In this document: positions 7,989 through 10,582 of the stretch, piece after piece
Layout of the letters: each line of letters opens with the position of its first letter
Numbering within the stretch: the first letter of the stretch is position 1
Assembly: GCF_029395355.1 (NCBI RefSeq)
Contig: NZ_CP113913.1
Location: 558,001 to 622,000, forward strand
Reading direction: 5' to 3'
Length of the DNA: 64,000 nt
DNA from: Bifidobacterium sp. ESL0800
GTDB taxonomy: Bacteria; Actinomycetota; Actinomycetes; Actinomycetales; Bifidobacteriaceae
Notes under the pieces: generated by a model
The model's input: the letters and a program-made list of their open reading frames with translations, nothing else
Told to the model about the DNA's origin: nothing
Databases searched by the model: none
Position numbers and translations under genes: made by a program

Positions 7989-8765
7989 ATGTCTACATTG
8001 GAAATCAAGGATCTCTACGCATCGGTGGAGACCAAAGAAGGCCGCAAGCAGATCCTGAAGGGCGCGACCCTGACCGTCAACTCCGGCGAGACGCACGCCA
8101 TCATGGGCCCCAACGGCTCCGGCAAGTCGACGCTGGCCTACACGCTGGCCGGCCACCCCAAGTACTTCGTCGATTCCGGCGAGGCCCTGCTCGACGGCCA
8201 GGACATCCTCAAGATGACCGCCGACGAACGTGCCAAGGCCGGTCTGTTCCTCGCCATGCAGTACCCGGTCGAAGTGCCCGGCGTCTCCATGACCAACTTC
8301 CTGCGCACCGCCAAGACCGAGGTCGACGGCAAGGCCCCGGCCATCCGCACCTGGACCAAGGAACTGCAGGCCGCGATGAAGAACCTCAGGATGGACAAGA
8401 AGTTCGCCTCCCGTTCCGTCAACGAGGGCTTCTCCGGCGGTGAGAAGAAGCGTGCCGAGGTGCTGCAGCTGGAGCTGCTGAAGCCGAAGTTCGCCATCAT
8501 GGACGAGACCGATTCCGGCCTCGACGTCGACGCGTTGCGCATCGTCTCCGAAGGCGTCAACCGCGCCAAGGAGAACACTGGGCTGGGCATCATGCTCATC
8601 ACGCATTACACCCGGATTTTGAAGTATATCAAGCCGGATATCGTGCATGTGTTTGCGGGTGGACGCTTTGTCAAGACTGGGGGACCTGAACTGGCGGATG
8701 AACTGGAAGAGACTGGGTATGATCAGTATCTGCCGGAAGGGGCTACCGAATCGGCTATGGCGTGA
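7989..8765 (+). CDS. sufC: Fe-S assembly ATPase SufC
   Basis: ABC-type ATPase that drives conformational change of SufB-SufD. The 258-residue product has Walker A GPNGSGKS near residue 39, the SufC-type signature FSGGEKKRAEVLQLELL, Walker B FAIMDETDSGLD and the H-loop LITHYTRIL. The LFLAMQYPVEVPG Q-loop is typical of SufC and separates it from transport ATPases. Translation begins directly after the sufD stop. The gene is followed by a 545-base hairpin-rich gap before sufS, unlike the tight packing upstream. Confidence 0.97.
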   Translation: MSTLEIKDLYASVETKEGRKQILKGATLTVNSGETHAIMGPNGSGKSTLAYTLAGHPKYFVDSGEALLDGQDILKMTADERAKAGLFLAMQYPVEVPGVSMTNFLRTAKTEVDGKAPAIRTWTKELQAAMKNLRMDKKFASRSVNEGFSGGEKKRAEVLQLELLKPKFAIMDETDSGLDVDALRIVSEGVNRAKENTGLGIMLITHYTRILKYIKPDIVHVFAGGRFVKTGGPELADELEETGYDQYLPEGATESAMA

Positions 8766-8831
8766 TTCTTTCCGATTGATCGCTTTAGGTTGTTGCTGAG
8801 ATTTTGTTTAGCTTGCTTTTAGCGGTTGGTC

Positions 8832-8922
8832 GCGGATTGGGGAAAAAATACAATGCTTCGGAACCCTCCAGGCCGGTAGGCCAAGCTTTACTCCTCGGCA
8901 TCGCATATTTTCCCCAATCCGC
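8832..8922 (+). repeat. Structured element A: 15-bp perfect terminal inverted repeat
   Basis: The ends 8832-8846 and 8908-8922 are perfect 15-base inverted repeats. Inside, ATACAATG (near 8848) faces CATCGCATAT (near 8900), and GGCC-GGTA-GGCC forms a small hairpin. Read on this strand, the element is homologous to the reverse complement of element C at 9104-9277: both have ATACAATG then TTCG near the left arm and GGCC(A/G)AG, CTTTAC and CATCGCATAT near the right arm. The outer arms differ in sequence but are self-complementary in each copy. It appears to be a shorter, internally deleted relative of C. Confidence 0.65.
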
Positions 8923-8966
8923 TTATGTAGCATTAGTTCATCAGGTTGATTTTGAAGGGCTTTGGA

Positions 8967-8995
8967 AGATTTCGATACATCGAGTATCGAAATCT
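8967..8995. repeat. 12-bp hairpin with ATCGA loop
   Basis: Positions 8967-8978 and 8984-8995 are perfect inverted repeats around a 5-base loop. The core TCGATACATCG also occurs inside element C near 9178-9188. No T-run follows on either strand, so it is a poor intrinsic terminator. Confidence 0.6.
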
Positions 8996-9103
8996 GCAAG
9001 CTGCGCTTGAGCGGTTTCATTTTGGTTCAGTTGTTTTAATCGACGCGAAACGCTCTTTAAGAGTTCTCTCTTTTTGAGTATCGTGGAGTTGGATACGTTA
9101 AGA

Positions 9104-9277
9104 GCGGCGGGGCGGGATATGCGATGTTCGACCGTAAAGACTCGGCCGGTAAAATCTTCGGATTTTACCTTCGCGCTCGATACATCGCGCTCACTTCGGC
9201 TACTTTCAGTCCACAGGACTGAAAGCTTTACGCCGAAGCCCAGAGCGTGTCGAACATTGTATATCCCGGCCCGCCGC
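9104..9277 (-). repeat. Structured element C: 29-bp terminal arms with nested hairpins
   Basis: Arms 9104-9132 and 9249-9277 pair over 29 positions with one mismatch and two G-U wobbles (as + strand RNA). Nested inside are CGTAAAG/CTTTACG (9133-9139 with 9226-9232), a 9-bp stem with a TTCG tetraloop (about 9148-9169), CTTCGGC/GCCGAAG (9194-9200 with 9232-9238, an alternative to the first) and a 10-bp stem with loop ACA (9203-9212 with 9216-9225). TCGCGCTC occurs twice near 9170-9192. In reverse complement it aligns with element A. Function is unknown: a mobile repeat, an RNA element or both are possible. Confidence 0.65.
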
Positions 9278-9310: not shown

Positions 9311-10582
9311 ATGGTCGACTTTTTGAAGATTAGGGAACAGTTTCCTATTTTGGATCAGGAGGTGCATGGGCATCGGCTTGTGTACTTTGATTCGGCGGCG
9401 ACCGCGCAGAAGCCGCAGTGCGTGATTGATGCGGAGTCGGAGTTCTATAGGACCATCAACGCTGGGGTGCACCGTGGGGCCCATGAACTGGCCTCGCGCA
9501 GCACCGTCGCCTTTGAGGAGGCCCGCGCCAAAGTGGCTAAGCTGGTCGGCGCCAACTATGAAGAGGGCGAGGAAGAGGTCGTCGTCACTGCTGGGGCCAC
9601 CGCGGGGCTCAACCTGCTGGCCACCGCCATCGGCAACGCCTCGCTTGGACGTGGGGGAGCGGCCGCCAAGCGGTTTGCCGTTGGTCCCGGCGACGAGATC
9701 GTCGTCTCCAAAGCCGAACATCATTCTGTGCTGCTGCCGTTCCAGGAGCTGGCTTTGCGTACGGGTGCCACGCTCAAGTGGTTCGATTTGACCGATGACG
9801 GGCGGATTCGTTCGGATACTGCCGACGAAGTGATTACCGAGCGCACCAAGATCGTGGCGATCACCCATATCAGTAACGTCACCGGAGCCATCACTGATAT
9901 CGCGCCTATTGTCAAGCGCGCGCATGAGGTCGGTGCCATCGTCATCCTCGACGCCTGCCAGTCCGTGCCCCATCTCAAGATTGATTTCCATAAGATGGAC
10001 GTCGATTTCGCGGCGTGGAGCGCCCACAAGATGTACGGCCCCACCGGTGCCGGATTCCTATATGGCAAGCGCGAACTGCTGGAAGCCCTGCCGCCGGCCA
10101 GCTTCGGCGGGTCGATGGTCGAACTGGCGTGGCTGGACAAGCCGGCGCAGTATATGGCGCCTCCTGAACGCTTCGAGGCTGGCACCCAGCCGGTCGCGCA
10201 GGTCGTGGCCGCGGGCGTGGCCGCCGACTGGATGCGCCAGATCGGCATGGAAAACGTCGAGGAACATGAGAAGGCCATCACCGCCGAGCTTTTGAAGTTG
10301 AACGATGTCCCAGGTTTCCGTGTGCTCGGTCCGGTGGAGACCAAGGACCGCATCGGCACTATCTCCTTCGATGTCGAAGGCGTGCATCCGCATGACGTCG
10401 GCCAGTTCTTCGACGCGCAGGGCATCGCCGTGCGCGTGGGCCACCACTGCGCTCAGCCCGTCCACCGTCATTTCGGCCTGTTCGCCTCGTCGCGCGCCTC
10501 GACCGCCGTGTACAATACCGTCGAGGAAGCCAAGCAGGTAGTCGAAACGGCCGGCAAGGTCCGTGCGTTCTTTGAGGTGTGA
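9311..10582 (+). CDS. sufS: Cysteine desulfurase SufS
   Basis: PLP enzyme that takes sulfur from cysteine as persulfide for SUF cluster assembly. The 423-residue product has the PLP-binding Lys in SAHKMYGPTGAGFLYGK near residue 239 and the catalytic Cys in VRVGHHCAQPVHRHFG near 379, both typical of group II desulfurases. The frame is open upstream to 9074 across element C, but the ATG at 9311 follows gaagg and starts at the family N-terminus VDFLKIREQFPILDQ. sufU begins 3 bases after the stop, so sulfur donor and acceptor are co-translated. Confidence 0.96.
   Translation: MVDFLKIREQFPILDQEVHGHRLVYFDSAATAQKPQCVIDAESEFYRTINAGVHRGAHELASRSTVAFEEARAKVAKLVGANYEEGEEEVVVTAGATAGLNLLATAIGNASLGRGGAAAKRFAVGPGDEIVVSKAEHHSVLLPFQELALRTGATLKWFDLTDDGRIRSDTADEVITERTKIVAITHISNVTGAITDIAPIVKRAHEVGAIVILDACQSVPHLKIDFHKMDVDFAAWSAHKMYGPTGAGFLYGKRELLEALPPASFGGSMVELAWLDKPAQYMAPPERFEAGTQPVAQVVAAGVAADWMRQIGMENVEEHEKAITAELLKLNDVPGFRVLGPVETKDRIGTISFDVEGVHPHDVGQFFDAQGIAVRVGHHCAQPVHRHFGLFASSRASTAVYNTVEEAKQVVETAGKVRAFFEV

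Follow-up and report, generated by a model that had tools for sequence, protein, structure and literature searches.

Between sufC and sufS of a bifidobacterial suf cluster, the genes of which are confirmed by Pfam, lie two long inverted repeats, elements A and C, with a smaller hairpin, H, in the spacer between them (Table 1). The window, that is the whole 64-kb stretch of DNA analysed here, covers positions 558001-622000 of a 2.25-Mb genome. The nearest named SufD loci are those of Bifidobacterium sp. ESL0784, MAG B-bin1, ESL0682, ESL0763, B. commune and B. bohemicum.

Table 1. Features of the sufC-sufS region, in window coordinates
Feature	Position	Strand	Remarks
sufC	7989..8765	+	upstream neighbour
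Element A, short 'TACC'-tip type	8826..8928	-	R1 match, 50.4 bits, E 4.1e-11
Element A stem, left arm	8832..8856	none	inverted repeat
Element A tip	8857..8897	-	GTAAAGCTTGGCC..GGCC..GAG core on - strand
Element A stem, right arm	8898..8922	none	inverted repeat
Middle hairpin H	8967..8995	none	A-C spacer; 12-bp perfect arms
Element C, long type	9104..9277	+	+ strand folds, sense to sufS
Element C 5' arm	9104..9132	none	inverted repeat
Extra module in C tip	~9148..9237	+	approximate boundaries
Element C 3' arm	9249..9277	none	inverted repeat
sufS	9311..10582	+	downstream neighbour; in-frame start 9311

The first-pass annotation had placed two inverted repeats between these genes, and both are present. 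That of element A spans 8832-8922, within its match to R1, a covariance model built from 26 copies. The 25-bp arms of A pair perfectly over the outer 15 positions, followed by an A.A and two A.C oppositions on the + strand. In the 29-bp arms of C, 26 Watson-Crick pairs, 2 G.T and 1 G.G are found. The self-complementarity described earlier (15 of 15 outer pairs in A; 28 of 29 pairable in C, including the two G.T) is therefore as claimed. An exact palindrome with 15-bp arms (loop up to 130) occurs in the window at A alone; the mean chance count is 0.02, with a maximum of 1 in 50 Markov-1 simulations. Element A folds with z-scores of -5.1 on the + strand and -6.9 on the - strand, at -43.4 and -53.6 kcal/mol respectively. 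Its best-folding, G.U-bearing strand is the - strand, antisense to suf. The + strand of C folds at -103.9 kcal/mol (z -10.3). The hairpins of A and C are beyond chance. Hairpin H (z-scores -4.4 / -5.1) is neither a copy of A nor a copy of C, and its pairing appears by eye to be retained via double changes in those clade suf spacers that carry A.

By sequence comparison, A and C are two sub-types of one repeat family. The homology proposed for them holds by way of the similarity of C to copies found by R1, with the correction that C carries an extra module of ~90 nt in its tip. This module, together with a broken apical GGCC helix, is why R1 does not recover element C; other copies having long inner modules are missed as well. 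Membership of C is drawn from DNA similarity to R1-found copies at 858, 1537 and 806 kb and from the alignment of orthologous suf spacers. Stretches similar to the ~90-nt module also occur alone or in tandem in the host genome (~1758250-1758700 and 2150640-2150840, contig coordinates). The module bears small hairpins of its own, the arms of which are variable yet paired by eye. On the same visual comparison, it looks like a second repeat nested in the tips of long copies.

Copy number, orientation and gene context

Searches of the host genome with A as query gave 7 places at E 1e-3 or better, A itself counted, and with C as query 23 stretches, C itself counted; some of the latter represent one copy and several match only the extra module. 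The genome holds about 23 copies in all (11 R1 places at E 1.4e-9 or better, opposite strands excluded, plus 12 copies read from loci of the DNA searches), of which 18 form 9 close pairs, all facing apart. R1 matches were detected in 83 of 189 Bifidobacteriaceae genomes, representing 5 of 16 genera, so that copies beyond A and C, which a repeat family would call for, are plentiful in the host and in its relatives. At least 21 scored candidates occur in 14 of the 83 positive genomes, although a copy may be counted on both strands in such per-genome figures. Copy number differs widely, with a single R1 match in G095 and 55 tip matches in G073. When only the tip was used as a pattern, leaving the stem out of account, 63 of 112 genomes of the genus gave matches, against 0 of 112 for the reversed-pattern control. 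An order-wide R1 search of 396 genomes gave 10 positives, nine in the genus and one from another family. Among the genomes searched, the family is confined almost only to Bifidobacteriaceae. The match from the other family (G449:C1:4654515-4654624) is single, scores 49.3 bits (E 5.9e-9) and may be either a chance palindrome or a distant relative.

Close neighbours nearly always face apart. The 150 listed R1 matches, from 8 genomes, fall into 121 clusters that include 29 pairs; the folding strands face apart in 29 of 29 pairs among the matches listed, the model ends of a pair being 24-384 bp from each other. The 150 stem-blind matches listed include 17 neighbours no more than 600 nt away from one another, of which 14 face apart ('-+'), 2 are in tandem ('++') and 1 is facing ('+-'). 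Exceptions to facing apart are seen at G001:C1:1919604-1919747, G009:C12:19828-19977 and G030:C20:278831-279120. A pair just before the window (G000:C1:556743-557055) and the one at window positions 8826-9277, ~10 kb apart, flank the stretch from pyrG to suf. A-like matches ~10-12 kb apart are also found in genomes G082, G083, G084, G088, G089, G091 and G092.

Gene context was counted in three genomes and six host regions, 82 clusters in all, by means of a crude in-house gene caller and with no baseline of junction types. For pairs, 23 junctions are codirectional, 4 convergent and 1 divergent; for the 52 singles with both neighbours known, the numbers are 33, 14 and 5. The outer side of an element lies a median of 28 nt from a stop codon (n=57), versus 70.5 nt for the inner side of singles (n=24; p 1.4e-4; only distances under 400 nt counted). 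Among singles between codirectional genes, 17 carry the folding strand in sense and 16 in antisense, an even orientation that does not favour a plain cis role in the mRNA. Just behind one pair, at L242:2948-3069 (G088), there is a match resembling a TPP riboswitch (47.7 bits vs a cut-off of 54.3).

A free but paired stem under a conserved tip

Read along the folding strand, the element consists of a 5' foot, a ~29-bp stem, GAC-YG, a bulge UA..R, CUY-GGCC and a loop of 4-5 nt, after which come GGCC, two bulged bases, GAG-YG, a bulged U, GUC, the second arm and the 3' foot. The stem is variable in sequence but paired, while the feet and the asymmetric tip are conserved. In genome G073, for example, the stem is 29 bp long in 44 of 52 copies, and the feet read AACGGA and GGTCAC by eye.

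Fair tests of the pairing are provided by the stem-blind tip matches and by the suf A site aligned across 13 species. At the latter, pairing holds in 99.3% of 301 cells, and both sides have changed in 13 of 24 pairs; covariation is 0.452 versus 0.195 in shuffled alignments and at most 0.146 in slid ones. Four of five measures lie above all 500 shuffles, the number of pair types being the one that does not. Among the stem-blind matches (150 listed, 30 loci), 33 of 35 reach 70% Watson-Crick pairing or more across 26 positions. In another set of 138 tip matches, most of whose loci were fetched with R1 or for suf, 13 fell below the in-register threshold; these have a long stem by eye, mostly with an offset of one base. 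A larger alignment, A2 (26 sequences), shows change on both sides at 28 of 31 stem pairs and covariation of 0.623 versus 0.192 shuffled and at most 0.129 slid. The 96.7% of its 983 cells that pair is an inflated figure, since most rows were chosen for long stems. In its source scan 32 of 161 core matches passed, one of which (L081) is unrelated. Pair counts of a further alignment, A3, were left aside, since some copies are present in it on both strands. The first-pass annotation had read the diverging but paired arms as either a selected structure or a repeat family with coevolving ends. Both are borne out, by the further copies and by the covariation, the latter including one orthologous site.

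The exceptions to Watson-Crick pairing are unevenly spread over the strands. On the strand defined by the tip, G-U outnumbers A-C by 31 to 4 (p 3.5e-6) in a set where stem scoring favoured the opposite strand. The numbers are 106 and 11 in a larger set that overlaps those loci, and 37 and 12 in the stem-blind set (p 5e-4). The outer stem is Watson-Crick in 1714 of 1750 cells, with 21 G.U versus 6 A.C among the exceptions. Cruciform DNA or fold-back correction predicts symmetry, so these lopsided exceptions point to one folding strand, and a single strand seems to fold under selection. The bias fits RNA and single-stranded DNA alike.

Shared sites and apparent exchange of tips

The suf site itself is variable. 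A scan for core and long stem over 80 suf loci fetched with SufD gave 32 matches; the sufC-sufS spacers of 26 loci account for 29 of these. An in-frame sufS follows sufC in 75 of the 80; of these 75 spacers, 26 have an element match, 26 are under 80 nt and 23 are longer without a match. In the suf spacers of other species, the folding strand is antisense to suf in 23 of 29 copies. Element C is missing from 5 of 13 clade suf sites, which together with the element-free spacers means that suf does not need the element. A clean empty-site junction at suf, sought with the five species that lack C, was not found.

Of 14 host element loci, 12 have flanking DNA in common with an element locus of genome G087 and 10 with one of G088, as judged within the fetched loci. 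A stricter junction test left 9 of 14 and 7 of 14 shared, with both flanks in 6 and 6. Between G087 and G088 only 5 loci pass this test, 2 of them with both flanks. The counts are minima, drawn from partial element lists. When G073 is compared with the host clade, a flanking protein is common to 6 of 42 loci, and copies adjoin the same gene at sufS, glmS and pta.

Arms are tied to their locus more closely than tips. In 2 of 13 species, the suf A site has a clearly different tip on related arms. Tip classes were compared among short-tip copies only (14, 15, 7 and 52) in four genomes, each of which holds two to eight of them. In G087 one class accounts for 7 of 14 copies and another for 1; in G088, with 15 copies, the numbers are 0 and 6 (p 0.005). 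One class is common to G087, G088 and G073. Ten same-locus comparisons between G087 and G088 gave arm identity above background (mean 0.50, maximum 0.82) in two, at 0.88 and, for the suf C site, 0.94; the other eight fall within background. Both of these loci carry different tip classes; the two classes are a few bases apart. Since tips have changed at sites that keep their arms, copies seem to swap tips with one another, gene conversion being the simplest route. In locus L030 (G084) the suf C site has a hybrid tip, half of class C and half of A type, with a mismatched inner stem by eye. By eye, this is the pattern expected of a conversion breakpoint.

Relation to known repeats and possible roles

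Rfam 15, searched with 2 kb of the window and six other loci, has no family that matches at the elements; the only matches there are miRNA models far below cut-off (21.1 vs 108; 44.5 vs 196; 34.6 vs 79). Y1 (RAYT) transposase, PF01797, was detected in 11 of 189 genomes and not in the host. It shows no association with the element, occurring in 5 of 83 genomes with it versus 6 of 106 without. Reverse transcriptase, PF00078, is found in 14 of 189 genomes, none of them the host (7 of 83 with the element vs 7 of 106 without), and a retroelement-derived repeat was rejected for want of association across the 83 positive and 106 negative genomes. An intrinsic terminator was also rejected, with no U-tract directly after the hairpin at A or C, nor by eye at other copies. 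A reading of the arms as target-derived duplications was dropped, as the conserved feet lie outside the variable arms. A full-length version with a transposase gene between copies facing apart, sought by eye at 0.6-3 kb spacing, was not seen among the matches listed. As for the features of a MITE, stems vary between copies, and target duplication was not seen by eye. A literature search over titles and abstract openings, with thin coverage of subscription journals, gave no bifidobacterial repeat of this kind.

Among the closest known systems are the REP sequences and their dimers (BIMEs, REPINs), the CGTC-tagged class included. According to the available text of PMC3733652, REPs and BIMEs are high-copy intergenic palindromes, often present as oppositely oriented dimers with spacers mostly of 20-100 bp, and located shortly after stop codons, mostly where the flanking genes are codirectional or convergent. 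The bifidobacterial elements resemble them in being intergenic palindromes, in their inverted dimers and in their placement behind genes. They differ in the stem, which in the same text is 5-13 bp in REPs, where stem and loop sequence define a family (PMC3733652); here it is ~29 bp and variable, and tip and feet are conserved. The unpaired GTAG or CGTC tag at one foot of REPs is not found, a CGTC foot being present by eye only on some host-clade copies. One dimer orientation strongly predominates in the bifidobacterial element, and it lacks the Y1 (RAYT) association of REPs. Identity with a RAYT-linked REP/BIME was rejected on stem, foot tag and transposase, and the same three points make the element a distinct variant among interspersed palindromic repeats.

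The integron attC site is a palindrome that folds in a strand-specific way and in which structure outweighs sequence. Strand-specific folding is what the bifidobacterial element has in common with it, but no cassette array was seen. The hosts of ERIC and Correia repeats are Proteobacteria. Orientation-dependent cleavage of transcripts at ERIC and RNase III cleavage at Correia elements (CE), as cited in PMC3049150, are the kind of role proposed here, a comparison made by description only. BOX and RUP of Streptococcus pneumoniae are also folded intergenic repeats, and the inner module boxB, which can be absent or repeated without disturbing the remainder, resembles the extra module of C (PMC3049150). 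Compared by description only, they differ in that the available part of PMC3049150 describes neither covarying locus-specific stems nor exchanged tips.

The choice between mobile repeat, cis-acting element and free RNA, which the first-pass annotation had left open, is narrowed only. On the reading preferred here, tentatively and as something short of probable, the likeliest use of these structured, dispersed intergenic repeats is as a hairpin acting at the RNA level at transcript boundaries. Something common to all copies in a cell, either gene conversion or a protein, would act on the tip, and the stem would need only to be a paired spacer of set length. Once folded in RNA, a copy might be cut, with RNase III as a candidate, or might stop exonucleases or polymerase. 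Since paired copies point away from each other, a transcript running into the junction, whichever its side of origin, would contain one copy in the orientation that folds. At suf, this might allow sufBDC and sufSU to differ in expression level. The RNA step, the factor involved and the consequence for suf are proposals, and the function is one that we infer.

It is rather unlikely, though not far-fetched, that the family is instead a once-mobile REP- or MITE-like DNA repeat, with a transposase that read a folded single DNA strand and with most resident copies old; the strand-specific pairing would then stem from recognition of single-stranded DNA. The wide variation in copy number (1 to 55, by the two measures given above) would fit, as would the intergenic placement, which is that of REPs, and such an enzyme would be expected to recognise a hairpin whose feet and tip are conserved. 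The distribution of Y1 transposase argues otherwise, as do the several sites common to species and the suf pairing kept by double changes, which relics should lose. In addition, the spacers of host pairs look mutually unrelated by eye, and the suf site has yielded no clean empty counterpart. That the element serves in cis as a 3'-UTR element of the upstream gene, a terminator or 3'-end protector in the sense transcript, is doubtful. A median of 28 nt behind stop codons suits such a role, and in the available text of PMC5746004 transcripts of B. breve are reported to end at GC-rich stem-loops that are not classical terminators. However, in the sense transcript of sufBDC element A has A.C mismatches and folds 10 kcal/mol worse than antisense, A and C have no U-tract terminator, the sole terminator-like site (1.1 expected) sits in the spacer, and codirectional singles are evenly oriented.

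Separate small RNAs, running outward from a divergent promoter situated between the two copies of each pair, are improbable. The folding strands of listed pairs do diverge, but where the model ends are as little as 24-35 bp apart two promoters would hardly fit, and many copies are single. At suf the sole promoter-like site (0.7 expected) is within C rather than in the spacer, and a -10-like box was not seen by eye in the flanks of G073 copies. Very improbable indeed is an origin without selection, by which palindromes would be held perfect by fold-back templated mutation. An outer stem almost purely Watson-Crick is what this process would leave, but it gives no reason for G.U over A.C on the tip-defined strand, where the outer stem has the 21 and 6 noted above, nor for G073 stems of mostly 29 bp.

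Beyond the hairpin at transcript boundaries, a bolder and unlikely extension would be a novel system in which a dedicated trans-acting factor, or a few with one for each tip class, would read the tips. Tips would turn over at sites where stems remain local, with the 29-bp stem as a ruler and the pairs marking the two sides of a junction. The several tip classes per genome and the class common to three genomes weaken the simpler form of one tip-reading factor per species.

The work has given a covariance model and a set of shared sites for testing, and the repeats are a candidate explanation for a separation in expression of adjacent genes such as sufC and sufS. As far as the available text of PMC3733652 goes, a REP family is defined by its stem and loop sequence; in the present repeats the stem sequence is free to vary, and what is retained of the stem is pairing, length and strand. 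The bifidobacterial repeats may offer a natural case, at defined sites in numerous bifidobacteria, for the study of concerted evolution or of a tip that has a putative partner. If the proposal of a tip-reading system is true, up to dozens of hairpins per bifidobacterial genome would make up a previously undescribed, family-wide nucleic-acid system.
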